Source: Methylobacterium sp. Leaf108 (GTDB lineage Bacteria; Pseudomonadota; Alphaproteobacteria; Rhizobiales; Beijerinckiaceae). From it: DNA of 64,000 nt. Both the position numbers and the translations under genes were made by a program. Of the stretch, positions 27,001 to 39,231 are shown piece by piece. Every line of letters begins with the position of its first letter. The stretch's first letter is position 1. The stretch lies in assembly GCF_001423265.1 (NCBI RefSeq), contig NZ_LMND01000034.1, positions 1 to 64,000 on the forward strand, in the 5' to 3' direction. A model generated the notes under the pieces. That model saw only the letters and a program-made list of their open reading frames with translations, did not search any database and had not been told where the DNA came from.

Positions 27001-28113
27001 TCAGGACGGCCGAGCCCGCACGGAGTCGCCGCCGAAGACGACCTGACGGCGCATGGCCGGCATGAACAGGGTGTCGAGCATGCGCGGTCGCCCCGCGCTC
27101 ACCGATTCCAGCGCCTCGCAGTGTTCCGGAGCGAGGACGAGGTCCAGGGCGGCGATGTTGTCGGCCATCTGCTCGACGCGGCCGATGCCCATGAGGGTCG
27201 AGGTCACACCCGGCCGCCCCATCACCCAGGCGAGGGCGACACGGGCGGCCGACGTGCCGATTTCGTCGGCGATGCGGCGCACGACCTCGACGATGGCCCA
27301 GTTGCGATCGGTGAACAGGCTGTCGCCGAACGGGTTCGCGCCGTCGAGACGCTTGTCGCCGTCATCGCGACCTTGGCCGGACGTCGCCGCGTCCCGCGGC
27401 AGTCCGGCCGCCCTCGGAGGCGATGCCTCGACGACGGCGCGGTCGTACTTGCCGGCGAGCAGGCCGTAGGCGAGCGGGCTCCAGGGCATGATCCCCATTC
27501 CGAACTCCGAGGCCATCGGCACATGCTCGGCTTCGATATCGCGGTTCACCAGGGCGTAGAAACCCTGCAGCGCGATCGGACCGGGCACGCCCCGCACGGC
27601 CGCCAGGGTCGCGAGTTTGGCCGCGAACCACGCCGGGGTGTTCGAGAGGCCCCAGTGGCGGATCCGTCCGGACCGGACGAAGCCGGTCATGGTCTCCAGC
27701 ACGTCTTCGGCCGGCGTGACCGAATCCCACACATGCAGCCAGAACAGATCGATATGGTCGGTCTTCAGGCGGGATAGGGACCCGTCGAGCGCCGCGTGGA
27801 GGTGCTTGGCGCCGCTGCCGCCCGCGAGTCGGCCCTTGCCGGTGGCGAAGCCCGCCTTCGTCGACAGGACGATGCGGTCGCGCAATCCCCGTTCGGCGAC
27901 GAAGCGCCCGATCATCTCCTCGCTGCGACCGTCCGCATAGACGTCCGCCGTATCGACGACGTTGCCGCCCGCCTCGACGTAGGCGTCGAAGATCGCTCGC
28001 GATTCGATCTCGCCCGACCCCCAGCGGGCGGTTCCGAACGTCATGGTCCCGAGGGCCATCGGGCTCACGACGAGGCCCGACCGGCCGAGGGTGCGATAAT
28101 CGTCCAACGGCAT
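27001..28113 (-). CDS. Aldo/keto reductase
   Basis: This 370-residue NADPH-dependent oxidoreductase has the (beta/alpha)8 fold. Visible family features are YRTLGRSGLVVSPMALGTMTFG at the N-terminus, the catalytic Asp and Tyr in VVDTADVYADGRSEEMIG, the lysine in VLSTKAGF, HIDLFWLHVWD, and the cofactor region VMGRPGVTSTLMGIGRVEQMADN. A 25-residue polar insertion (SPPRAAGLPRDAATSGQG) lies after GLLAGKYDRA. It belongs to the YajO/Tas-like branch; the natural substrate is unknown. It is divergent from a TetR-family gene across 77 bases that contain palindromes, so it is a likely target of that repressor. Confidence 0.9.
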   Translation of the reverse strand: MPLDDYRTLGRSGLVVSPMALGTMTFGTARWGSGEIESRAIFDAYVEAGGNVVDTADVYADGRSEEMIGRFVAERGLRDRIVLSTKAGFATGKGRLAGGSGAKHLHAALDGSLSRLKTDHIDLFWLHVWDSVTPAEDVLETMTGFVRSGRIRHWGLSNTPAWFAAKLATLAAVRGVPGPIALQGFYALVNRDIEAEHVPMASEFGMGIMPWSPLAYGLLAGKYDRAVVEASPPRAAGLPRDAATSGQGRDDGDKRLDGANPFGDSLFTDRNWAIVEVVRRIADEIGTSAARVALAWVMGRPGVTSTLMGIGRVEQMADNIAALDLVLAPEHCEALESVSAGRPRMLDTLFMPAMRRQVVFGGDSVRARPS

Positions 28114-28137: not shown

Positions 28138-28190
28138 CGAAACCCTAGCACTCCTTGCCTCGCCGCGTCCAGGGTTTCATATTGAACGCT

Positions 28191-28811
28191 ATGGAATTTG
28201 ATGAAGACACTCCGCGTCGGAAGGCCGGTCGGCCGTTGTCGTTTAATCGCGATGCGGCCCTGCACCAGGCGATGCTGCTGTTCTGGCGGCATGGCTACGA
28301 GGCGACGTCCCTCAGCGAGCTGACCGCCGCCATGGGCGTGAGGCCACCCAGCATCTACGCCGCCTTCGGCGACAAGAAGGGTTTGTTCCTCGCCGCGGTC
28401 GATCGCTACCTGTCGGGCCCCGTCACGCCCGAGACGATCATCGCAGGCGCTTGCTCCGCGCATGCAGCCGCACTCGCCTTGCTCGACGCCTCGGTGATCG
28501 GCTTCACGGGAACGCAGACGCCGCCCGGCTGCCTGCTCGCCAGCGCCACGATCAGTTGCTCGGCAGAGGCTGCCGACGTTCAGCGAGCGCTCACGGCGAT
28601 CCGCCAGCGCATCGAGGCCCAACTGAGGGAGCGCATCCTGCACGGGATGGACGCGGGCGAGATGCCGCCGGAAACGGACGCGGACGCCCTGGCGGGGCAT
28701 GTGATGGCCGTCATCCAGGGGTTGTCGACCCTCGCGCGCGACGGCGCGGCGCGCGACAAGCTCCAGCGTATCGCCGCTTCCGCGATGCGGGCGTGGCCCG
28801 AGCCGGCCTGA
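28191..28811 (+). CDS. TetR/AcrR family transcriptional regulator
   Basis: The product has 206 residues. The N-terminal helix-turn-helix domain reads AALHQAMLLFWRHGYEATSLSELTAAMGVRPPSIYAAFGDKKGLFLAAVDRYL, close to the consensus of the family, and the C-terminal half (TPPGCLLASATISCSAEAADVQ) resembles the ligand domain of the YafC/AefR-like branch, in which a PGC(L/F)L motif is typical. Start at ATG 28191. It probably represses itself and the divergent aldo/keto reductase; the inducer may be an aldehyde or electrophile, which is only inference. Confidence 0.9.
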   Translation: MEFDEDTPRRKAGRPLSFNRDAALHQAMLLFWRHGYEATSLSELTAAMGVRPPSIYAAFGDKKGLFLAAVDRYLSGPVTPETIIAGACSAHAAALALLDASVIGFTGTQTPPGCLLASATISCSAEAADVQRALTAIRQRIEAQLRERILHGMDAGEMPPETDADALAGHVMAVIQGLSTLARDGAARDKLQRIAASAMRAWPEPA

Positions 28812-28822
28812 GCGGCCATCCT

Positions 28823-29596
28823 TCAGGTGGTGGTAGCCAGCGCGGCCAGTGCGGCAGGCAAGGCGCCCATGAGGCGGAACGCCTCGCGTGCATTTTCCTC
28901 GGCCAATCTCTTCACGAGGCCGGCGCGTCCTCCGAACTGAAACCCGAGCTGGCTGACATAGGCGGAACAGGCGCTCTCCTTGGCCGCCTCGGCCTCGGGC
29001 GCAAAGCCGATCGTCACCGATTCCAGCCGTGAGACGCTCTCGGCGAACGGCTCCTTCGGCGTCTCATGACGCACGGTATAGGGAAAGTCGCGCCACCACA
29101 GGATCGGTGTGCCGGCTCCGCGCTGCGAGACGTTCGCCTGCAGGGCAAGGATCACCTGGAGATGGTCGACATGCCCGCCGATGCCCTGTGGCGCCAGGAT
29201 GAGGTCGGCAGCCGTCTCGGCGATCAGGTCCCCCAAGGCCGGGCGCAGGTCGTCGACGATGGCATCGTCGGCCCGCAGGCCGGCGAAGAGCTGCGGCGCA
29301 CTGCCGTAACCGCGGTGCGGCGCCTCGCGAAAGCCGAGGTGGAGCGGGCGCGCGACACCGAGGGCCGTGGCTGCCGCTGCGTCCTCGGCTCGCCTGAGCG
29401 CCATGTAGTCGACGTCGGGTCCGAGGCCCTTGTCGGTCTGGCAGGCCAGGGCGAACCCCTTCGGATCGGCCACCGAGCCGGTGAAGACCGTCGCCATCAC
29501 GACCGTCCAGCCCGACGCCGCGAGGGTCGCGAGCGTGCCGCCGCAGGAGAAGGCGGCATCGTCGAGATGCGGGGACAGGGCGAGCGCGGTCGGCAT
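28823..29596 (-). CDS. PIG-L family (MshB/LmbE-like) deacetylase
   Basis: This 257-residue enzyme belongs to the zinc-dependent N-acetylglucosaminyl deacetylase family. The first metal motif is SPHLDDAAFSCGG (His 10, Asp 13) and the second is GHVDHLQV (His 145), as in MshB and BshB, which remove acetate from GlcNAc-inositol or GlcNAc-malate. It is the last gene of an eight-gene operon and follows a GT4 glycosyltransferase by 2 bases, repeating the MshA-MshB pairing of mycothiol synthesis. The likely substrate is therefore the glycoside made by its neighbour; this is an inference. Confidence 0.88.
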   Translation of the reverse strand: MPTALALSPHLDDAAFSCGGTLATLAASGWTVVMATVFTGSVADPKGFALACQTDKGLGPDVDYMALRRAEDAAAATALGVARPLHLGFREAPHRGYGSAPQLFAGLRADDAIVDDLRPALGDLIAETAADLILAPQGIGGHVDHLQVILALQANVSQRGAGTPILWWRDFPYTVRHETPKEPFAESVSRLESVTIGFAPEAEAAKESACSAYVSQLGFQFGGRAGLVKRLAEENAREAFRLMGALPAALAALATTT

Positions 29597-29598
29597 CG

Positions 29599-30822
29599 CT
29601 ACAGCAGGTGCGGTTCGGCGCGGAAACGGCAGGACGGATCGTGCGGCAATGTCTCCTGGAAGGCAGGATCGGGAAGCTCGCCGGCGATCTCGTCGTAGAC
29701 CGCCATGATCCGGCGGCCGACGCTGTGCCACGAGTAGACCCGACGGCATTCGGAGAGGCCGTCCCTGGCGAGACGCCGCCGCAGGTCGTCGTCGACCACC
29801 ACCCGCGTCAGGGCCACGGCGAGGGCCGGTACGTCGCCCGGCTGCACCAGGAGACCGTTCTCCTCGTCCCGCAGGCAGTCGGACACCCCGACCGAATGGG
29901 TCGAGACCACGGCGAGCCCGGCTGCCATCGCCTCGAGGATGGTGTTGGAGAAACCCTCCGCATAGGTCGGCGACACGAAGACATCGGCCTGCGCGTAGAG
30001 GGCAGGCACGGTGTCGTAATCCGCGTAGCCGGTGAAGCGGGTCTCGGCCTCTCCCAGGCCGCGCTCGGCGGCCAGGTCCTTCGAGGCCTCAACGTCCGGC
30101 CCGATGCCCGAGACGATCGCCTCGAACGGCGTACCGGCGTCGCGCATCCTCGCCAACGCCTCGATGAAGTCGAGCACACCTTTCCGACGGTCGACCCGTC
30201 CATGGTAAAACAGGCGGATCGGACCGGGCGCGCGCGTCTCGACGGGGGTGAAGCGGGCCGTATCGACCGCGCCGGGCACGATCGTGAAGCGATCCGGATC
30301 GGCACCGAGCCGGTCGCAGACCTCCCCGACGAAGGAGGCGCCGCCGATGAGCAGGGCGTTGGCGTGCGCGAGCACCGCGCACATCGCGACCCGATGGGTC
30401 TCGCAGCAGGAGCCGACCCAATGGCCGTCTCCGCCCTGGATCGAGACGACGGTGGGGAGGCCGATTGTCTTGGCCGCGATCAGGGTCGCCCAGCCGGTGG
30501 GGTAGCCGTATTGCGCATGCAGGACGTCGAAGGGCGAGCGCGCATGCTCGGCCACGATGGTCTCGACCATCGTCGCGATGTCGCGCTCGAAGTCGCCGTT
30601 CGTCTGCTCGCCGATCTGTTCGAGCCCGATGACGCGCACGCCGGGCACCGCCGGCGGCGGGCCGCCGCCATAGACGCGGGTGCCGAAGGCGTCGCCACGG
30701 TACTGGCTGATCATCGTCACGTCGTGACCGGCGCCCACGAGTTCGCGCAGCAGGTTCTGCGCATAGACGCTCATGCCCGAGATCGCGGGAAAATAGCGCC
30801 GGCTGACGAAGCAGATCCTCAT
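29599..30822 (-). CDS. GT4 family glycosyltransferase (MshA-like)
   Basis: The product has 407 residues and a GT-B fold. Its N-terminal domain has RYFPAISGMSVYAQNLLREL (acceptor-side glycine loop), and the C-terminal domain has RLFYHGRVDRRKGVLDFIEAL and the nucleotide-sugar motif SPTYAEGFSNTILEAMAAGLAVV with the E-x7-E pair. GT4 enzymes use UDP- or GDP-sugars with retention. Together with the inositol-phosphate synthase and PIG-L deacetylase of this operon it resembles MshA, but the acceptor is unproven. The ATG at 30822 (MRICFVSRRYFPA) is the natural start; the frame stays open upstream only through a repeat hairpin. Confidence 0.9.
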   Translation of the reverse strand: MRICFVSRRYFPAISGMSVYAQNLLRELVGAGHDVTMISQYRGDAFGTRVYGGGPPPAVPGVRVIGLEQIGEQTNGDFERDIATMVETIVAEHARSPFDVLHAQYGYPTGWATLIAAKTIGLPTVVSIQGGDGHWVGSCCETHRVAMCAVLAHANALLIGGASFVGEVCDRLGADPDRFTIVPGAVDTARFTPVETRAPGPIRLFYHGRVDRRKGVLDFIEALARMRDAGTPFEAIVSGIGPDVEASKDLAAERGLGEAETRFTGYADYDTVPALYAQADVFVSPTYAEGFSNTILEAMAAGLAVVSTHSVGVSDCLRDEENGLLVQPGDVPALAVALTRVVVDDDLRRRLARDGLSECRRVYSWHSVGRRIMAVYDEIAGELPDPAFQETLPHDPSCRFRAEPHLL

Positions 30823-30845
30823 GCGCGACCGCTCCGCGATGCGCA

Positions 30846-30924
30846 CGAATGGCGAATGGCGAATGGCGAATGGATCGCCCACCTGCTCGTCCGTTTCCTA
30901 GCCATTCGCCATTCGCCATTCGCC
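30846..30924. repeat. Inverted tandem heptamer repeat hairpin
   Basis: Four copies of CGAATGG (30846-30873) are followed, after 28 bases, by three copies of CCATTCG plus a partial copy (30902-30924), the reverse complement. The RNA would fold into a stem of about 21-23 bp. It lies inside the operon between the TIM-barrel isomerase and GT4 genes, where it could attenuate or protect the mRNA, or mark a dispersed repeat. Confidence 0.85.
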
Positions 30925-30928
30925 GATG

Positions 30929-31759
30929 TCATGCATGCCTCCGGGCTTCGCGCAGATAGGCCAAAGCCTGGGGGATCATCACGTCGGCGCGGTGGCTCTC
31001 GCGGGAGAGTTCGACGCAGATCAGCTTGCCGAAGGAGATCGATTCCAGGGCGGTGAGGACGCCGCCGACGTCCATATCGCCCTCCCCGAACGGCAGGTGG
31101 ACGTGGACGCCCCGCGCCATGTCCTCGATCGCCACCGTGCCGATGCGCTCGGCGAACTCGGCGATCGCCGCAGCCGGCTCGCGCTCCTGCGTCACCAGGC
31201 AGTGACCAGTATCGAGGGCGAGACGCAGGCCCTCGATGTCGAGCCGCGCGAAATCGTCCAGGGTCTCGATCAGCATGCCCGGTTCCGGTTCGAGGCAGGG
31301 CACGACGCCCTGCGCATCGGCGTAGGCGACGACATCCGCCACGCCGTCCCGCAGCCAGCCCATCGCGTCCGCGGAATCGACGCCGGCCTTCGGCACGCCG
31401 GCCCAGAACGAGACCGCCTCGGACCGGAGGATGGCGGCGATGTCGATCGCCCGCTTGAGAAACCCGATCCGCCGCAGCCGCGCGGAAGCGTCGGCCGTCA
31501 CCAGGGTCGGCTCGTGCTTGGCCTTCGGATCGAGGAGGAAGCGCGCGCCGGTCTCGATCACCGATGCGAGCCCGAGCCGCTGGAGCCGGCTCGAGACCCG
31601 CTCGGTCTCCTGCACCCAGCCCTCCGCGAAGGGATCGAGGTGATGGATGTCCAGGGTGATGGCGACACCGTCGTAGCCGGCGTCCGCGATCAGGTCGATG
31701 GCATCGTCGAGGCGGTGGTTGGCCGCGCCGTTGGTGTTGTAGGCGAAACGAAGCGTCAT
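30929..31759 (-). CDS. Sugar phosphate isomerase/epimerase (AP endonuclease 2/TIM-barrel family)
   Basis: This 276-residue protein is related to xylose isomerase-like epimerases such as IolE/IolI and Hyi. It starts MTLRFAYNTNGAANHRLDDAIDLIADAGYDGVAIT and shows the expected metal ligands of the barrel: Glu in CLEPEPGM, Asp and His in LALDTGHC, His in GVHVHLPFG and a late Glu in ICVELSRES. Such enzymes act on ketoses or inososes. Next to a Gfo/Idh dehydrogenase and inositol-phosphate synthase, an inosose or keto-sugar substrate is a reasonable guess. Confidence 0.85.
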   Translation of the reverse strand: MTLRFAYNTNGAANHRLDDAIDLIADAGYDGVAITLDIHHLDPFAEGWVQETERVSSRLQRLGLASVIETGARFLLDPKAKHEPTLVTADASARLRRIGFLKRAIDIAAILRSEAVSFWAGVPKAGVDSADAMGWLRDGVADVVAYADAQGVVPCLEPEPGMLIETLDDFARLDIEGLRLALDTGHCLVTQEREPAAAIAEFAERIGTVAIEDMARGVHVHLPFGEGDMDVGGVLTALESISFGKLICVELSRESHRADVMIPQALAYLREARRHA

Positions 31760-31838
31760 GCGACGATCCTCTCACGGCACCGCCACGTCCGGCCTTCTCC
31801 TGTCTGTGAGAGAGGCAAGACCGTCCGTCCGAGCCCCT

Positions 31839-33428
31839 TCACGCCGCCCGGCCCTGCTGCTGCAGGCGGAACGGCGCGTGGTGCGATTCCGGCTCGCGGT
31901 AGAGCGGGTAGTGCCGTCCGACGATGGTGTCGGCCAGTGCCGTATCGAACAGCGGCTGGCCGCCGAACCGCTCGATCGCCTCCGGCGTCAGGCGCACCGG
32001 CCGCAGGGTCTCGCTCGCCTCTCCGAAGCGGATCAGCGGATGGTCGCGCTCGATCAGCTTGCGCGTGTTGCGCTCGCCGATGCGGTGATAGCTCATGGTC
32101 TCGACCTCAAGGCCCGGCACGATCGCCTTGACGATGCCGACCCCGGCGCCGGGGGGCGAGCAATCGACATAGAGGACGTCGAACCCCGCCTCGTCGAGCC
32201 GCTCGCGGGCGATGCGGCCCCTGGCATGGCCATCGGGGGCGGGGGTCGTCGGCAGCTCCGTGAAGGGCTTCGTGCTACGTTCGGAATAGACCGTGTCGGC
32301 GAGGACGTCGCGCAGGGCCTCGGGCGGCAACACGATCCAGTCGAGCATCGCGCGCAGCGCCCTGCCCTCTTCCAGGTCGAGGCTCGGCAGAGCCTTGCGG
32401 ATGAAAGCGTCGACATAGCCCGGCGGGGTCACGCGCTCGGCAAAGCTCAAGGGGCCGTGGCCGAAGGCCTTGCGGACACGGGCGGCCTGGAATTCGAGCA
32501 AGGCCTTGCGCAGGGCCCGTTCGCGGTCGGGATCGCAGGCCTCGCCGCAGGCCGAGAGCGCGATCGGCACGGGCGTGTCGGCGAGATCGCGGTCGTAGCC
32601 GACCACGTAGACGTTGGTGAGCCCGAACTGGTCGGTGGCGAACTTCGGCAAGGCGCGGATGCCGAGGGCATCGAGGCGGTCGAGCATCGCCTGCGTCTCG
32701 GGGCCGAGCCCTTGTGAGACGTCGAGCATCACACCCTGGTCGAGGGCGCGGAACAGAAGGCCGTTGCCGTCGCGCTGCAGCAGTTCGAGGAGCCCGTGGC
32801 CGAGGGCGAACGCCACGTCCGGGCCGGCGCCGAGGCCGTTGGTGATGAGGTTGGTGAAGGGCGTGTAGCCCTCCGACAGTTCGAAGTAGTCCGTGGCCGC
32901 GATGTCGAGGGGCATCAGGACGGTCTCGGACGTCCGGGCCCGGACCGCCGGGGTCCATTCGAGCACCGTATCGCGCCCGACGGGGCTGCCGGCGGGAAGG
33001 CAAAGGGTGAGCGGATCGGCCACCGCGCCGGCGCCGAAGACGCGCACGAGGTCGTGGTAGGAGCCGCGCTCCTTCTTGCGCGGCATCACCGCCAGCGACG
33101 GCATCAGGTTCTCGGCAATCTCGGCCACCGCGCCGATCAGCGCCTCGTCGTCGGTGGCGCCGTAGCCGATCCCGCTCGGCATGGCGCCGACGAAGAACGG
33201 ATCGTCGAGGAAGAGCGAGACGAACCACACCGGAATGCCGGTCCGGTCGAGGGGCGCGAGGGAGAAGCCGACGATCCGGCCCGGCGGCAGGATGTCGAGA
33301 TAGGCCCGGACCGGCTCGGGCAGAGCGGAGGGCAGGCCCTCGATCCGTCTGGCGGTGCCGTAGCGGTAGGGGCGCGGAGCCTTCACGCGGGCGTTGCGGG
33401 CCCGTCCGTCCTGGTCGTTCTCGCTCAC
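31839..33428 (-). CDS. YcaO domain protein
   Basis: YcaO enzymes use ATP to activate a backbone amide oxygen; known products are azolines, thioamides and amidines in peptides or proteins. This 529-residue member shows SGIGYGATDDEALIGAVAEIAENL (residues 85-108; the two ATP/Mg glutamates fit E103 and E106), TNGLGAG at 196-202 and ELLQRD at 215-220, where the usual ERD is QRD. The lysine common in the SxGKG loop is a tyrosine here. There is no C-terminal PxPxP, no fused partner domain, no TfuA and no precursor-peptide gene nearby. The GTG start at 33428 lies 19 bases after the dehydrogenase gene. Its substrate is unknown. Confidence 0.82.
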   Translation of the reverse strand: MSENDQDGRARNARVKAPRPYRYGTARRIEGLPSALPEPVRAYLDILPPGRIVGFSLAPLDRTGIPVWFVSLFLDDPFFVGAMPSGIGYGATDDEALIGAVAEIAENLMPSLAVMPRKKERGSYHDLVRVFGAGAVADPLTLCLPAGSPVGRDTVLEWTPAVRARTSETVLMPLDIAATDYFELSEGYTPFTNLITNGLGAGPDVAFALGHGLLELLQRDGNGLLFRALDQGVMLDVSQGLGPETQAMLDRLDALGIRALPKFATDQFGLTNVYVVGYDRDLADTPVPIALSACGEACDPDRERALRKALLEFQAARVRKAFGHGPLSFAERVTPPGYVDAFIRKALPSLDLEEGRALRAMLDWIVLPPEALRDVLADTVYSERSTKPFTELPTTPAPDGHARGRIARERLDEAGFDVLYVDCSPPGAGVGIVKAIVPGLEVETMSYHRIGERNTRKLIERDHPLIRFGEASETLRPVRLTPEAIERFGGQPLFDTALADTIVGRHYPLYREPESHHAPFRLQQQGRAA

Positions 33429-33447
33429 GTCGGGTCCGTCCTGTCTC

Positions 33448-34476
33448 TCACGTCGTCGCCGCGGCGCCTGCGGCGGGTGGCATGCCGTAGGCGCGGGCCA
33501 GAAGCCGCATCGTGTGGAGGTCGCGTTCGGCGCTATAGGCCGTCCGTTCCCCGGGGCGCCGCAGGGCGGAGCCGAAGGCGCGGACCTGTTCCAAGAACGG
33601 CGAGGCGGCCGCATCGAAGGGGACAGCCTCGGCCAGCCCACTTGTACCGTCGGTGAACGTCAGCGACCCACCGGCGACCTGGCCCATCGTGTCGATCGCC
33701 GTGAACTGGCCCCGTGTTCCCACCACCTCGAGGCGCCGGCGCGGCAGGGCATCGGGGCAGTTGTAGGCGACATGGAGGTTGGCGAGGACGCCGCCCGCGC
33801 TTCGCCCGATCAGCAGCGCACCGTCGTCGACGGTGTAATCCTGTGCCCGGCTCTGCGTCAGGGCGGCGATGTCGACGATGGGCTCGTCGAGGAGGAAATC
33901 CACGAGGTCGAGCCCGTGGGGCGCGAGATCCATGAGGGCGCCGCCACCCGCCCTGGCCGGGTCGATCCGCCAGTTGTCGAGGTCGGCCCGTGAGGTCCAC
34001 TCCCGGCCGAGCCAGCAGGCGTAGAGGATCCGGATGGTCGTGACCGTACCGATCCGGCCGGCGCGGATGTCCTCGCGCATCGTGCGATGGGCGGGGTGAT
34101 GACGCTGGTCGAAGGCGGTGCCGTAGAACGCGCCGGTCGTGGCGATCGCGGCGGCCATGGCCTCGGCGTCCGCAAGACCGGCCGCCATAGGCTTCTCGCA
34201 CAGGATTGCCTTGCCCGACGCCGCCAGGACCTCGACGGCGCCGCGATGGAGATGGTTGGGCGTGGCGACATAGACCGCCTCCACGTCCGGCTCGGACAGG
34301 AGGCCGTCGACGGTCGCGTGGGCGCGCGCGCCATCGGCTTCAGCGGCGGCGCGGGAAGCCTCACCCGGATCGCAAACCGCCACCAGCCGGTGCCCGGCTT
34401 CGTGGATGCCGGGGGCCATGTAGTCGCGGGCGACCCAGCCGTAGCCGACGATGCCCCAGCCGACGTCGTCCGCCAT
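33448..34476 (-). CDS. Gfo/Idh/MocA family oxidoreductase
   Basis: The 342-residue NAD(P)-dependent dehydrogenase has a Rossmann domain (WGIVGYGWVARDYMAPGI), the EKP motif in CEKPMAAGLADAEAM and the C-terminal substrate domain with GGGALMDLAPHGLDLVDFLL, where the Asp and His match the catalytic pair of inositol/glucose-fructose dehydrogenases. The family oxidises or reduces sugars and cyclitols. Its ATG shares a base with the stop of the preceding methyltransferase (TGATG), so they are translationally coupled within the inositol operon. Confidence 0.9.
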   Translation of the reverse strand: MADDVGWGIVGYGWVARDYMAPGIHEAGHRLVAVCDPGEASRAAAEADGARAHATVDGLLSEPDVEAVYVATPNHLHRGAVEVLAASGKAILCEKPMAAGLADAEAMAAAIATTGAFYGTAFDQRHHPAHRTMREDIRAGRIGTVTTIRILYACWLGREWTSRADLDNWRIDPARAGGGALMDLAPHGLDLVDFLLDEPIVDIAALTQSRAQDYTVDDGALLIGRSAGGVLANLHVAYNCPDALPRRRLEVVGTRGQFTAIDTMGQVAGGSLTFTDGTSGLAEAVPFDAAASPFLEQVRAFGSALRRPGERTAYSAERDLHTMRLLARAYGMPPAAGAAATT

Positions 34477-35660
34477 CACCACCGCTCCGGCAGGTCGACG
34501 AACTCGCGCCGCCGCACCCGTTCGGCCGCCGGGGTCGTCTCTCCGCCGACCCAGTCGAGCACTTCGGGTCCGGCGGAGGTCGGCGGGTAGGTGGCGCGGG
34601 CAGCGTATTCCGCCTCGTAACGTTCGGAGGGCCAGGCGATCCCATACCGGCCTGAACCGTCCGGCCGATAGAGTGGATTGAGGCGCAACTGCGTTCCCTC
34701 GCGCGGCAGGGTGATGCCGTCGACCACGGTGCGGGGGGCGGGCCGCATCCCCGGCCCGGCCACCACCGAGAAGGCCTCCACGCCCATCATCTCGGACGGC
34801 GCTCTGGGCGCGGGAGCGCGACCGGCGAGGAGGGCACGGGTGAGTTCGTCGTCGTCGTAGACGAGACCGTCGGGGAACAGCTCGTCGATCTCGGCCGCAG
34901 ACACCGCCTTGCCGGCCGAGAAGCCGGGACGGGCCGCGTTGTGGATGTGGCTCAGGGCGAGCCATCCATCGTCGCCGGCGTTGCGGCGCAGATTGTCGAG
35001 GACAGCCGCCTTGTCGTCGAGGAAGTAGAACGCATCGTTGCAGACCACGAGATCGACCGGAGAGCCGGCGATAGGCCAATGCGGCGACCCGGCATCGAAA
35101 CAGAGAAGCTGCGCCTTGGCGTCGAGGAGCCAGTGGCGGGCGACCCAGAGCTTGGCGAAGACGACATCGCCGCCGGCGACCTTGGCGCCGCGGGACTGGA
35201 ATTCGCGCAGGTAGTGGCCGATGCCGCAGGCGAATTCGAAGATGCAGGAGGGGTCGTTCCAATGCGCTTCGAGGAGCGTCAAGCCGGCGAGATAGGTCGG
35301 ATCGGTCCAACGGTGCAGGAAGTAATCGCCGACCCGCCCCCAACCGAGGTGCCGGACCGCATCGCGCAGGCTCATCGTCTCGCGGTCGCGCACCAGGGCA
35401 TGCAGGTCGATCGGATCGGCCGCCGGTCCGGTCCACCAGTCGTCCTGATCGGCGAGTAACCCTTCGAGGGCGAGGCCGATCTCGCCGGCATCGAGCAGCT
35501 TCAACGTCAGTGCGACGAGATCGTCGCGCCCGGTGCGCAGGTACGGGATGCCATCGACCGAGGGCCACCGGTCCCCGGTCACGGCGTCGCGCAAGGAATG
35601 CGGCGTGTCGGACCGCAAGGGATGGCCGGTTTCCGGGGAGAGAAGCTCGAAGGGAATCAT
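34476..35660 (-). CDS. SAM-dependent methyltransferase with Trm112-like N-terminus
   Basis: This encodes 394 residues. The N-terminus (FELLSPETGHPLRSD to DRWPSVDGIPYLR) resembles the short Trm112/YbaR-like domain often fused to methyltransferases, but the zinc cysteines are missing. The class I methyltransferase core follows: CIFEFACGIGHYLREF (SAM loop), VAGGDVVFAKLWVARH, LLCFDAGSP and VDLVVCNDAFYFL. The C-terminal third has no recognisable domain. The methyl acceptor is unknown; context suggests an intermediate of the inositol/sugar pathway encoded by this operon. Confidence 0.82.
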   Translation of the reverse strand: MIPFELLSPETGHPLRSDTPHSLRDAVTGDRWPSVDGIPYLRTGRDDLVALTLKLLDAGEIGLALEGLLADQDDWWTGPAADPIDLHALVRDRETMSLRDAVRHLGWGRVGDYFLHRWTDPTYLAGLTLLEAHWNDPSCIFEFACGIGHYLREFQSRGAKVAGGDVVFAKLWVARHWLLDAKAQLLCFDAGSPHWPIAGSPVDLVVCNDAFYFLDDKAAVLDNLRRNAGDDGWLALSHIHNAARPGFSAGKAVSAAEIDELFPDGLVYDDDELTRALLAGRAPAPRAPSEMMGVEAFSVVAGPGMRPAPRTVVDGITLPREGTQLRLNPLYRPDGSGRYGIAWPSERYEAEYAARATYPPTSAGPEVLDWVGGETTPAAERVRRREFVDLPERW

Positions 35661-35691
35661 CGCAACCGCCCCGCGCCGTCGAATGGGACGC

Positions 35692-36612
35692 TCACGGGAT
35701 GCGCATATCCCTGAGGACGCGGTCGTGGAAGTCCTTCACGGGACCGGCGTGCACGAGTTCCATCTCGGTGAGCACGGTGTCCATGGTCAGCGACGCCGAC
35801 CGCAGGTGCTGCGCGATCTGGAGAACCCGGTCCATGGCATCGGCGGCATGGAACGCCCGACCCTCAGGCGTGGAATCGTCCGGAAGAACGGTTCTCGCCG
35901 CCTCGATCTGCGCGCGCAGCGGAGCCGCGATCTCCTTCAAGGCCAATTCGGTCGTCCGTGCCATGATCGTGGCGAGATGCGGCCCGAGCAGCATTTCGCC
36001 CGTGAACCCGGCGTCAGGCATCATCGCGTTATGGAAGTGATGGCTCATCCCGGCGAGAAACACGGTGGTGGGGTCTGCGCCATAGAACGGACTCAGCACG
36101 ACGCCGTAGACAGCGACGACGAGGCAATGTTCGGCATGGTTCTCGGGCGGTTCGAGCAGGATCCGCGCCTTGCCGGGACAGGTCACCCCCGCACGCGGCT
36201 GATCGGCGAGCGCCTCTACGAAACCGGGAATCGGACCTGCCCGCATCGCCTCGCGACGGCGCAGGCGTAGCCGCAAACCCTCCAACAGCCCGGGGTCGAC
36301 ATTCGCCGCCACGGCGTCGAGGCCAGCGACGAGGACATCCCCCACTTCGCCGCGGGAGAGACCCGCGGATGACAGGAACGCATCGTCGAGATCGCAGAGG
36401 CGAGCGGCCGCCAGGGCCTTGGCGGTGATGTCGAGCGCCACCGTCGCAGCATCGGCCCCGGCCGTGAGCGCCGACCAGCCCTGAAAGAACAGGCGCTCGG
36501 CGATGGAGCCGAGACGCCCGCTGGAATGGACGCGCTTGAGGTCGTTGAGCTCGACCAGGAGGTCGCGCAGTGCGAGGGGGGCGAAAGCCCCCCCCACGTC
36601 GGATGTCGCCAT
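35692..36612 (-). CDS. HD-like putative metal-dependent protein
   Basis: This encodes 306 residues. The central part has a cluster of possible metal ligands: NHAEHC (His 159, His 162), then MSHHFHNAMMPDAG (His 191, 192, 194, Asp 200), Glu 206 and His 212, set in helices much like an HD-domain enzyme (phosphohydrolases; also the diiron oxygenases MIOX and PhnZ). The classic His-Asp pair is not clearly kept, so assignment is tentative. Its ATG overlaps the stop of the inositol-phosphate synthase gene by one base, implying joint function, perhaps dephosphorylating or oxidising its product. Confidence 0.6.
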   Translation of the reverse strand: MATSDVGGAFAPLALRDLLVELNDLKRVHSSGRLGSIAERLFFQGWSALTAGADAATVALDITAKALAAARLCDLDDAFLSSAGLSRGEVGDVLVAGLDAVAANVDPGLLEGLRLRLRRREAMRAGPIPGFVEALADQPRAGVTCPGKARILLEPPENHAEHCLVVAVYGVVLSPFYGADPTTVFLAGMSHHFHNAMMPDAGFTGEMLLGPHLATIMARTTELALKEIAAPLRAQIEAARTVLPDDSTPEGRAFHAADAMDRVLQIAQHLRSASLTMDTVLTEMELVHAGPVKDFHDRVLRDMRIP

Positions 36613-37802
36613 CAATGCGCGCCGAGCCAGTTCAGCAGCATCGTCTGCTGCTTCCCGAAGTCGTGCTCCGGACCGTGGCCGTTCTTCACCATCGGCGCCT
36701 TGAAGAAGCTCGACAGCTGCTCCTGCACGCCGCCGTCGCCACGCTTCTTGGCGAGGTCGAGAACACGGGCGATCTCGATCACCAGCGGGGCGGCAAGGAT
36801 GGAGTCCTTGCAGAGGAAGTTGACCTTGATCTGCATGCGCTGACCGAGGAACCCGGTCACGTCGATATTGTCCCAGGCTTCCTTGTCGTCGCCGCGGGGC
36901 CGATAGTAGTGAATGTGGACCAAGTGATCCTCGACCGGGTAGCCGAGGATCGAATCCAGCACCGTGCCCTTGGTGTTGAGCTTGGACTGGAGCGAATCCG
37001 GATCGTTGAGGGCGAGGCCGTCGCGGTTGCCGAGGATGTTGGTCGAGAACCAGCCGTCGACATGCAGCGCACGCGCCTTCAGCGCGGGGGCGAGCACGGT
37101 CTTCATCATGGTCTGGCCGGTCTTGCCGTCCTTGCCGGCGACCGGGACGTTCATCTCCCGGGCGAGGTCGAGAAGAGCGGGTACGTCGGCGGCGACGCTC
37201 GGCGTGAAGTTGGCGTAGGGCACGCCGCTCTTGATGGCCGCGTAGGCGTAGAGCATCGCCGGGCTGATCGCCTCGTCGCTGGCGTCGAGCCCCTTCTCGA
37301 AGGCGGCGGTCGAGTTCAGGACTGGGTCGGAGAGGTCGGGCCAACGCTCGGTGGAGGCCAAGTTGATCACGACGACCTCGTCGAGATTGCTCTCGAGCCG
37401 AAACCGACGGAGGTCGTTGGCGATCACCGATACCGCCTCGCGGTGATCGGCGGCGACGATGCGATTGGCGCCGTCGATATTCTTGCAGAACTTCGCGCTA
37501 CCGACGGCCGGCCAAGGCTTGATGCCCTTGAGCACCTGGGCACCGTTCTCGATGTCCTGCTTGGTGAGCACGCCGTGGCCGGTGGCCGCGGAGGCGAGGT
37601 CGTCGTCGTTCAGGTCCCAGCCGCCGAAGACGAGGTCCTTGTAGTCGGCCAGACCGGCCACCGAGATCCCCGCAAGAGGCAACCCGTCCAGGTGGTTCGA
37701 GCCGGTCTTGATCATTTCGATACCGGCGATGGCTGTGGTGGCGACGGCGCCGCCCATGCCAACGAAGGCAACGCCGACACGGCGCGCGGTCTGCATGCTC
37801 AT
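36612..37802 (-). CDS. myo-Inositol-1(3)-phosphate synthase
   Basis: This NAD-dependent enzyme converts glucose 6-phosphate to inositol phosphate. The 396-residue protein has the NAD-binding VAFVGMGGAVATTAIAG at the N-terminus, VVINLASTERW, the substrate region PVAGKDGKTGQTMMKTVLAP, NILGNRDGLALNDP, and the highly conserved QIKVNFLCKDSILAAPLVIE near the C-terminus. It is the first gene of the eight-gene operon (AAGGAAG ribosome site upstream). Inositol-phosphate synthases are uncommon in this bacterial class, which makes its placement beside GT4, PIG-L and YcaO genes noteworthy. Confidence 0.93.
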   Translation of the reverse strand: MSMQTARRVGVAFVGMGGAVATTAIAGIEMIKTGSNHLDGLPLAGISVAGLADYKDLVFGGWDLNDDDLASAATGHGVLTKQDIENGAQVLKGIKPWPAVGSAKFCKNIDGANRIVAADHREAVSVIANDLRRFRLESNLDEVVVINLASTERWPDLSDPVLNSTAAFEKGLDASDEAISPAMLYAYAAIKSGVPYANFTPSVAADVPALLDLAREMNVPVAGKDGKTGQTMMKTVLAPALKARALHVDGWFSTNILGNRDGLALNDPDSLQSKLNTKGTVLDSILGYPVEDHLVHIHYYRPRGDDKEAWDNIDVTGFLGQRMQIKVNFLCKDSILAAPLVIEIARVLDLAKKRGDGGVQEQLSSFFKAPMVKNGHGPEHDFGKQQTMLLNWLGAH

Positions 37803-37983
37803 GGGGAAGAGACTTCCTTACTCTGATCGACGAGGCAGCGGCTCGGAGCCGCATGCTCGTCCGTTCGGTCTGGCTAAACTGGGACAGTCCCCGTTCGTTC
37901 CAAGTCCGGCGATGGGGCCTTATTGCCGCGCCCAGGGTGAATGCGGACCGAACGGATCGTTAAGGGCGGGTCCGCGAACAGGC

Positions 37984-38112: not shown

Positions 38113-39231
38113 ATGACAATGGGGGTTATCCCGGAGCCGGCGCTCTGCGCCGACGACGTGAGCCGTCTCGTGCCCAACGAGACCATCCTTTTCCGCCGGC
38201 CCGGACCGAGGCCGACACTGAAGACCAAAGGCCTGCGTCACCGCACGGCCAAGATCCTCGCCGCCGGTTTCCTGCTGGCCACCGGGCTACCGCAGAGCGC
38301 CCTCGCTCCTGCCGCCCTGGCTCACGACCGGATCGACTTCGACGTCCGTCGCGCAACGGCGGCGGTGAACACCGAATCGTTCACAGAACGCGGTGCCTGG
38401 TCCGGAGTTCCCGTCATCGAACAGGAACCGCCTACCCTGGCACTGATCGAGACAGACCTCGCCTCGCTGCCGCAACCGGCCGAGCCCGGCGATGGCGACA
38501 GCTTGCGTTTCGGCGACATGACCGTGCCGCGCCCCCTGGTCGAAGCGATCCTGCGGGCCTCCGAGGAGACCGGGGTCGATCCCGTCTACATGATGGCGCT
38601 GGCCGACAAGGAGTCGAGCTTCTCCACCACGGTGAAGGCGTCGACCTCATCGGCGGAGGGGTTGTTCCAATTCCTGTCGGGCACGTGGCTCGAAGTGGTG
38701 CGCCAGTTCGGGCGGCGCCACGGGCTCGACGCCGAGGCCGCTGCCGTGACCGGCCGAGGCCGGGGCATCACCGTCTCGGACGATGCCATGCGCACCCGCG
38801 TCCTCGCCCTGCGCCAGGACCCCTACGTCGCCGCGCTGATGGCCGGCGAGCTGATCAAGCGCGACCGCGACCGGATCGCCCAGCGGATCGGCCGAGACCT
38901 CAAGACGTCGGAGCTGTATCTCGCCCACTTCCTGGGGACGGCGAGCGCCGGGCGCTTCCTGACCCTCACCGAGGAGAAGCCGGCGCAGGTCGCCAAGGCG
39001 GTGTTCAAGTCGGCGGCGAAGGCCAACCGCAGCCTGTTCACCCAGAAGGAGGGGAAGGGCCGGCGCGGGCTCACCGTCACCGAACTGCGCCACCGCATCG
39101 ACGGCATGATCGACCGCCGCCTCAACCAGTACGAAGGCGTCGCGGCCCTGGGAGCGGCCGCCCCCCGCGAGACCGCCGGTCGTACGGCCCCCGTCCCGGG
39201 GGTCATCCGGGTCTCCGAGGCGCTGCCGTAG
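38113..39231 (+). CDS. Lytic transglycosylase domain protein
   Basis: This 372-residue protein has a late hydrophobic export segment (KILAAGFLLATGLPQSALAPAALA, residues about 47-70), so it is probably periplasmic or membrane-anchored. The SLT-like domain is seen at PVYMMALADKESSFSTTVKASTSSAEGLFQFLSGTWLEVV, where the first Glu of KESS is the expected catalytic acid and GLFQF matches the conserved G-(L/I)-(M/F)-Q. Such enzymes cut peptidoglycan for growth, division or assembly of envelope machines. An alternative ATG lies two codons in. The upstream CtrA box suggests cell-cycle control. Confidence 0.85.
   Translation: MTMGVIPEPALCADDVSRLVPNETILFRRPGPRPTLKTKGLRHRTAKILAAGFLLATGLPQSALAPAALAHDRIDFDVRRATAAVNTESFTERGAWSGVPVIEQEPPTLALIETDLASLPQPAEPGDGDSLRFGDMTVPRPLVEAILRASEETGVDPVYMMALADKESSFSTTVKASTSSAEGLFQFLSGTWLEVVRQFGRRHGLDAEAAAVTGRGRGITVSDDAMRTRVLALRQDPYVAALMAGELIKRDRDRIAQRIGRDLKTSELYLAHFLGTASAGRFLTLTEEKPAQVAKAVFKSAAKANRSLFTQKEGKGRRGLTVTELRHRIDGMIDRRLNQYEGVAALGAAAPRETAGRTAPVPGVIRVSEALP

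Follow-up and report, generated by a model that had tools for sequence, protein, structure and literature searches.

Several described systems use enzymes of the kinds considered in this report. The early steps of mycothiol and bacillithiol synthesis (Ino1, MshA/BshA, and MshB/BshB) employ a GT4 glycosyltransferase and a deacetylase of the PIG-L fold, with inositol phosphate used in mycothiol only. YcaO enzymes use ATP to activate amide oxygens, and include those of McrA thioamidation (MJ1094) and of thiazole/oxazole-modified microcin (TOMM) clusters. Inositol catabolism by IolG and IolE, like the YcjS/YcjR pairs, joins a Gfo/Idh dehydrogenase to a TIM barrel resembling xylose isomerase, and the aristeromycin pathway includes a cyclitol synthase similar to inositol-3-phosphate synthase (MIPS) together with the isomerase Art22. 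Likenesses to all of these meet in an operon of eight genes within a 64,000-nucleotide (nt) stretch of DNA from Methylobacterium sp. Leaf108 (contig NZ_LMND01000034.1, positions 1 to 64,000; hereafter “the window”). The operon has in common with the thiol pathways the GT4 and PIG-L pair, with the YcaO systems the YcaO domain and its conserved ATP-site residues (best match in the Protein Data Bank, PDB, 6pe3), with the catabolic systems the pairing of dehydrogenase and TIM barrel, and with aristeromycin synthesis a homologue of MIPS together with a TIM barrel whose top Foldseek match is Art22. A further resemblance, to the mycosporine pathway MysA-MysD, is one of proposed logic only: a cyclitol core, O-methylation, an ATP-activated ring carbonyl, and addition of an amine.

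The results described below support the view that the operon is a real and conserved biosynthetic unit with a connection to stress and sunlight. Our best explanation of its function goes further, and we offer it tentatively, with slightly less than even confidence in the whole. It holds that a complete pathway, able to move horizontally, is encoded here and yields a small stress-protective molecule with myo-inositol and an amino sugar as its building blocks, that the operon is placed under the general stress response in Methylobacterium, and that the cluster is predicted to serve cells exposed to sunlight and drying. Because no transporter or known resistance protein is found among the eight proteins, the product is probably intracellular. 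Searches within one library of papers found none joining YcaO with inositol and Methylobacterium, with “inositol-3-phosphate synthase,” or with PIG-L and a glycosyltransferase.

The operon comprises eight co-directional genes on the minus strand (28823-37802), preceded by a promoter-like element:

37877..37901, minus strand: sigma-EcfG-like promoter, GGAAC-N17-GTT, beginning 99 nt upstream of the MIPS start
36612..37802, minus strand: MIPS, first gene; Pfam NAD_binding_5 (220.7 bits) and Inos-1-P_synth (118.6 bits)
35692..36612, minus strand: HD-fold protein, 306 amino acids (aa); Pfam HD_3 at 18.3 bits (cut-off 22.5), and a predicted model
34476..35660, minus strand: S-adenosylmethionine-dependent methyltransferase, 394 aa; Pfam Methyltransf_23/11/25 above cut-off
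33448..34476, minus strand: Gfo/Idh/MocA dehydrogenase, 342 aa; Pfam GFO_IDH_MocA and C-terminal domains above cut-off
31839..33428, minus strand: YcaO ATP-dependent enzyme, 529 aa, GTG start; Pfam YcaO (154.4 bits)
30929..31759, minus strand: TIM barrel of the sugar isomerase/epimerase type, 276 aa; Pfam AP_endonuc_2
29599..30822, minus strand: GT4 glycosyltransferase, 407 aa; Pfam Glycos_transf_1 (111.2 bits)
28823..29596, minus strand: PIG-L deacetylase, 257 aa, last gene; Pfam PIG-L at 63.7 bits (cut-off 28.2)

All of these open frames are present where the initial annotation, made from the letters and open reading frames alone, had placed eight consecutive minus-strand genes of the named families. 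It had also described the genes as overlapping by one base or lying 2 to 31 nt apart. Overlaps and short gaps do occur, but the successive spacings from MIPS to PIG-L are -1, 31, -1, 19, 79, 106, and 2 nt, and the upper limit therefore does not hold. Pfam bears out seven of the family names at scores that exceed the curated cut-offs. For the second gene, HD_3 scores below its cut-off, and the HD-like label draws on a predicted model that resembles HD phosphohydrolases. The guanine-cytosine (GC) fraction of the operon is 0.689, compared to 0.700 for the window.

Gene order carries the argument that these families belong together. We compared 95 loci, of which 76 (L036-L111) are from Methylobacterium; L112 and L153 are one record, leaving 94 distinct records. 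In 94 of the 95 loci the cluster genes lie in the same order and on one strand, and all eight are called in 83. The exception, L150, shows the same order by BLAST and lacks gene calls because its GC content is 46% and the codon model was GC-rich. With tblastn, all eight genes are detected in 84 loci; eight of the 11 loci that lack some gene end at a record edge (L058, L075, L081, L112, L149, L151, L152, and L153). The MIPS gene of L148 is split. Such retention of order means that the grouping is not due to chance. The proposal in the initial annotation that the eight families form one biosynthetic unit is thus upheld: order is conserved outside Methylobacterium, and the scattering of genes that it had named as refuting evidence was not seen.

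A ninth gene, coding for four N-terminal cysteines (a zinc ribbon) and a metallo-beta-lactamase domain (Pfam analysis of the Roseomonas protein), accompanies many of the copies outside the genus. It lies between the Gfo/Idh and YcaO genes in five of the eight outside lineages (Roseomonas, Hymenobacter, six loci of the alphaproteobacterial family f103, and L150), and at or near an end of the cluster in L145, L148, and L156. No match to it was found in the examined flanks of the 76 Methylobacterium loci. In the genome that contains the window, a single homologue (41% identity) lies on a different contig.

The distribution of the cluster is patchy. Closest relatives were taken as the best 80 of 134 stretches, comprising the 76 Methylobacterium loci (79-90% identity) and four others (L112-L115, 64-66%). 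The YcaO gene is present in 36 of 37 genomes of the same genus, that of the window included, G012 being the sole miss; there is one copy per genome except in G019, where one contig has a match near each end. Among the 61 genomes scanned, three others gave YcaO matches, all weak. At a threshold of E <= 1e-30, matches occur in 38 of 298 genomes and six of 43 genera of the window genome's own family, and in six of 82 genomes of family f103 (all five of genus g379, which we guess to be Skermanella, and one of 11 of genus g277). A sample of 385 genomes from the class gave one genome outside the genus at this threshold and four more at 1e-20 to 1e-26, and none of 398 genomes sampled from the phylum gave a match at E <= 1e-30. 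Plasmid records of Roseomonas haemaphysalidis and of Hymenobacter volaticus (Bacteroidota) also carry the cluster, with Acetobacteraceae and Bacteroidota represented by these one record each; together with six further genera they make up the eight outside lineages. Restriction to Methylobacterium was therefore rejected. In bacteria of leaves, air, and dust, the eight- or nine-gene unit retains its order over several families and two phyla.

In a tree of six concatenated proteins, the Hymenobacter copy groups on a long branch with the f103 and Roseomonas copies, which agrees with transfer between phyla. On the Hymenobacter plasmid (L034, 10102-15327), the Gfo/Idh and GT4 genes are each split over two frames, reflecting either decay or sequencing error. 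Methylobacterium, Hymenobacter, Roseomonas, and Skermanella are tabulated among the genera most abundant on solar panels (PMC7533311). A passage on Roseomonas mucosa reports a YcaO cluster as one for a ribosomally synthesized and post-translationally modified peptide (RiPP) (PMC8776678), which may or may not be the cluster described here.

Partial versions were also observed. Genus g63 (L027-L029, in the same order) has genes for the HD-like protein (30-33% identical to that of the window) and the TIM barrel (47-50%) side by side, without other cluster genes; this pair possibly represents a shorter related pathway. The YcaO gene of Microvirga aerophila (L114) has no other cluster gene within about 10 kb on either side, and L155 holds a second lone YcaO, 0.6 kb from the contig start.

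Residues typical of each family are invariant across lineages in alignments of 10 to 24 representatives per family (one record being present twice), and by analogy with known relatives they are probably catalytic. MIPS is most similar to PDB 7nwr (E 1.1e-91), has 148 invariant residues in 19 representatives, and has both of its domains above the Pfam cut-offs; judged by family and conserved residues, it is a true inositol-phosphate synthase. The conversion of glucose-6-phosphate to inositol-3-phosphate is accordingly the safest step of the pathway that we envisage, although it too is predicted.

The HD protein would then remove the phosphate. Its AlphaFold model (pLDDT 86.5) gave ten top VIA-align rows with Z of 9.6-11.6 over 130-156 aligned residues, including HDDC2, YfbR, and a predicted phosphohydrolase, and the matched region spans residues 123-285 (Z 10.5-11.6 to HDDC2, YfbR, and similar proteins); for helical folds, Z values under about 13 can arise by chance. 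Foldseek assigned HDDC2 a probability of 1.00, yet returned no match at E <= 0.001. The invariant residues are H159, H162, H191, H192, H194, D258, and D261, with H191-H192 at the likely place of the usual His-Asp doublet. We consider the protein a probable phosphomonoesterase in which His-His may replace His-Asp. Its extra histidines led us to consider a diiron oxygenase of the myo-inositol-oxygenase/PhnZ type, which is less likely given the Z values for PhnZ (4.0) and TmpB (3.1) compared to 9.6-11.6 above.

The Gfo/Idh and TIM-barrel proteins would oxidize the ring and then epimerize or dehydrate it. The dehydrogenase has invariant K95, D183, and H187, and its best PDB matches, 4koa and 2glx, are 1,5-anhydro-D-fructose reductase. 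The TIM-barrel model (pLDDT 90) lies nearest to ketose 3-epimerases and Art22, with VIA-align Z of 30.3 to 3wqo and 29.4 to Art22 and a best Foldseek match to Art22 (3e-14), YcjR also being among the matches; E157, D183, H186, and E250 are invariant. Assignment as an IolE dehydratase was rejected, the sequence match being weak (9zmu, 3.5e-4) and the listed structural neighbors mostly epimerases and isomerases.

The ring would be methylated by the methyltransferase, GT4 would add GlcNAc (N-acetylglucosamine) or a related sugar, and PIG-L would free the sugar amine, a deacetylated sugar being likely by family. GT4 retains R209, K214, E289, and E297, and PIG-L retains H10, D12, D13, H142, and H145. 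The initial annotation had likened this pair to the mycothiol enzymes. A distant likeness stands, but identity with MshA and MshB does not: GT4 scores 76.7 of 462.5 bits against the MshA equivalog and PIG-L 25.2 of 224.35 bits against MshB, and therefore the likeness to mycothiol steps stays an analogy. Its statement that the operon is not simply a mycothiol operon agrees with the gene content, there being no MshC or MshD family among the eight proteins (the genome was not searched).

Finally, YcaO would use ATP to activate a carbonyl, whose oxygen is replaced by a nitrogen or sulfur nucleophile. The closest solved relative in a profile search is MJ1094 (6pe3, 5.8e-23), and E103, E106, N197, E215, R219, E312, and R317 are invariant. 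The protein scores below the cut-offs for both McrA thioamidation (TIGR03266, 55.3 of 365 bits) and SagD-type proteins (TIGR03604, 83.2 of 219.25 bits). None of the usual TOMM or RiPP partners (TfuA, an E1/ThiF-like protein, or a peptide partner) is represented among the eight operon proteins (no systematic search for small genes was made), and the widest intergenic gap of the operon in the window measures 106 nt. The substrate of this YcaO looks like a non-peptide one. The sequence of the steps, what YcaO does in them, and the nature of the product are inferred.

Evidence regarding the conditions under which the pathway operates comes first from the promoter. The general stress sigma factor EcfG has a published consensus of GAAC-N16,17-C/GGTT in M. 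extorquens (PMC4814048), and a Sphingomonas consensus is given as GGAAC-N17-20-GTT (PMC6599016). The pattern GGAAC-N17-GTT occurs within 450 nt of MIPS in 59 of 91 clusters (57 of 75 in Methylobacterium and two of 16 elsewhere, one record being counted twice), compared to 86 of 4550 random windows. Within 200 nt, it precedes 56 of 73 Methylobacterium MIPS genes, compared to 24 of the 458 other genes that have a gap of 100 nt; by eye, the 12 listed examples among these 24 resemble copies of a single conserved gene. When the 57 Methylobacterium sites are aligned, the base before GTT, which the pattern leaves unconstrained, is always A, and most spacer positions vary. Because these sites are homologous, their count overstates the evidence. 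Two clusters from genus g577 (L146 and L147) have CGTT, which equals the published -10 element.

The second line of evidence is proximity to genes for the repair of ultraviolet (UV) damage. In 68 of the 76 Methylobacterium loci, the gene after PIG-L belongs to the uracil-glycosylase (UDG) superfamily, and relatives of it lie just upstream of MIPS in five of the six f103 loci (one case confirmed by Pfam in each group). In Roseomonas, a single gene separates PIG-L from a pair of spore photoproduct lyase (SPL) genes. One SPL gene adjoins the lone YcaO of Microvirga aerophila, with another at a distance of about 6 kb; this record (L114, 3182-11497) also has a frame that by eye resembles a UV endonuclease and contains an in-frame stop. 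In all, UDG-like or SPL neighbors are found in four lineages and not in others.

Co-occurrence within genomes points the same way. We used 80 genomes chosen from those scanned for the cluster. The 23 bearers comprise six Methylobacterium genomes, all six from f103, and 11 of the 13 that the own family has outside Methylobacterium; one of the 23, G1382, has a lone YcaO only. The 57 non-bearers comprise 37 of 76 in f103 and 20 from the own family. SPL is present in 16 of the 23 bearers and three of the 57 non-bearers, and the UV endonuclease UvdE in 19 and eight, respectively, whereas acetate kinase, the single control family, is present in 10 and 34 (P 0.22). Counted by genus, with g277 on both sides, G012 left out, and genera not being independent, the values are 5/8 versus 2/31 for SPL (P 0.0017) and 7/8 versus 5/31 for UvdE (P 0.0004). 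In g277, one of the 11 genomes is a bearer, and neither SPL nor UvdE occurs in any of the other ten; acetate kinase is confined to this bearer and one further genome, which makes the bearer an unusual member. The EcfG-like promoter, this co-occurrence, and some of the neighbors point to protection from sunlight or desiccation over a thiol buffer or a signal, two roles that the initial annotation had thought possible.

A number of observations weigh against this explanation. Internal gene losses occur, with the methyltransferase missing from the Hymenobacter copy, MIPS from L145, and PIG-L from L146 (both g577); the gaps in the latter two fall inside long stretches. The promoter pattern is absent from 18 of 75 Methylobacterium copies and 14 of 16 others, and the -10 element in the window and in all aligned Methylobacterium sites is AGTT rather than the published C/GGTT. 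The window itself has no UDG neighbor, a TetR-like gene following PIG-L instead. The examined flanks of Hymenobacter, L112, and L144-L152 gave no match to UDG or SPL, and those of the 76 Methylobacterium loci gave none to SPL. The genome of the window has SPL and lacks UvdE, G012 has both without having this YcaO, and SPL is missing from the tested genomes of the bearing genera g596, g600, and g602 and from one of four g577 genomes tested. Co-occurrence may also stem from a shared sunny habitat. In addition, three lineages have OpgH-like genes next to the cluster, an arrangement also compatible with an osmotic or envelope function.

Some features of the window are recorded here as separate observations. 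Between the TIM-barrel and GT4 genes, at 30851-30924, (GGCGAAT)n units form a perfect inverted repeat of 23 nt. Contigs C1, C6, and C31 of the same genome also have two such units in tandem, but all 76 of the related Methylobacterium loci that were checked lack them. Beyond PIG-L are the TetR-like regulator (28155-28811, plus strand) and an aldo-keto-reductase-like gene (27001-28113, minus strand), both named by eye. The divergent neighbor on the other side (38113-39231, plus strand) was matched by eye to relatives that hold the same place in 72 of the 76 Methylobacterium loci, one of which has a transglycosylase-SLT match just above the cut-off.

Among more specific proposals for the product, the one that fares best, although we consider it improbable, is a UV screen derived from inositol, in which oxidation and dehydration would turn the ring into a cyclohexenone like that of mycosporines minus the CH2OH carbon and carrying an O-methyl group. 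YcaO would activate the vinylogous carbonyl with ATP, as MysC and MysD do, and the amine freed by PIG-L would generate an enaminone or imine chromophore. The chemical argument is that the amine of a cyclohexenone is a vinylogous amide, and that YcaO could therefore do the job of the mycosporine ligases. Conservation of the YcaO ATP-site residues, the weak IolE match of the TIM barrel, and the co-occurrence with UV repair and the UDG and SPL neighbors favor this proposal, and such a screen could be the ultraviolet A (UVA)-absorbing compound of Methylobacterium. Compounds of this kind are cited for several strains of the genus (PMC12573535, PMC7821382), which the genus-wide presence of YcaO fits, and the passages on them name no biosynthetic genes. 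On the other hand, one of these passages calls the compound avobenzone-like, which is not obviously a cyclitol (PMC7821382). No canonical mycosporine family occurs among the operon proteins, the Hymenobacter copy does without the methyltransferase, and the TIM barrel has mostly epimerases and isomerases among its listed structural neighbors, so that the dehydration this chemistry calls for is unsupported. We rate as slightly less probable still the full version, in which a glucosamine (GlcN)-linked mycosporine analogue, made with YcaO in place of the ATP-grasp ligases, is the origin of the UVA-absorbing compound and its genes are a cassette moving between phyla. If true, a sunscreen cassette would travel ready-made between phyla, in Roseomonas next to SPL genes, and leaf bacteria would have a candidate gene set for their UVA-absorbing compound.

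The OpgH-like neighbors suggest a different role, in which the product decorates, or is a precursor for, periplasmic glucans or other envelope glycans under osmotic or desiccation stress. An OpgH-like glucosyltransferase gene is adjacent to the cluster in Roseomonas, in the six f103 loci (with OpgG), and in L148, and GT4 and PIG-L proteins are common in glycan synthesis. However, the examined flanks of the 76 Methylobacterium loci gave no match to OpgG or OpgH, the OpgH homologues of the window's genome are on other contigs, and YcaO has no glycan role known to us. We regard this role as unlikely.

Less likely again is a redox buffer resembling mycothiol, a thiol or thioamide in which MIPS, GT4, and PIG-L make GlcN-inositol and YcaO adds sulfur. 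Its appeal lies in the distant resemblance to MshA/MshB and BshA/BshB and in MJ1094 being the nearest solved YcaO. Against it stand the MshA and MshB scores, which lie far below cut-off, an operon whose eight proteins include no member of a cysteine ligase or acetyltransferase family, and the Gfo/Idh, TIM-barrel, and methyltransferase proteins, for which it offers no role. Moreover, a bshB1 gene adjoins the PIG-L gene of the cluster on the Hymenobacter plasmid, which suggests that this host makes another thiol. A secreted aminocyclitol antibiotic, such as a pseudodisaccharide like kasugamycin or minosaminomycin, would account for the combined cyclitol, glycosyltransferase, deacetylase, dehydrogenase, and methyltransferase enzymes but is very improbable, as no exporter or resistance family occurs among the eight proteins, the cluster is core and syntenic in its genus, which is unusual for an antibiotic, and the links are to UV repair and stress.

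By the tests run here, the cluster is not a mycothiol, RiPP, or mycosporine cluster. Compared to mycothiol and bacillithiol synthesis, all three of its corresponding proteins score far below the equivalog cut-offs, ligase and acetyltransferase are lacking from the operon, and five extra enzymes, including YcaO, are present. Unlike the McrA and TOMM systems, it has no TfuA, E1-like, or peptide partner family, and its YcaO falls below TIGR03266 and TIGR03604. Where MysA-MysD begin with a sedoheptulose-7-phosphate cyclase and use ATP-grasp ligases, the operon has MIPS and YcaO. Its Gfo/Idh and TIM-barrel proteins differ from IolG and IolE in scoring below the cut-offs (99.2 of 355 and 16 of 290 bits, respectively) and in being set beside MIPS. 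Lastly, in contrast to the aristeromycin pathway, its MIPS is near 7nwr (1e-91) and far from the synthase of five-membered cyclitols, 6k96 (1e-11).

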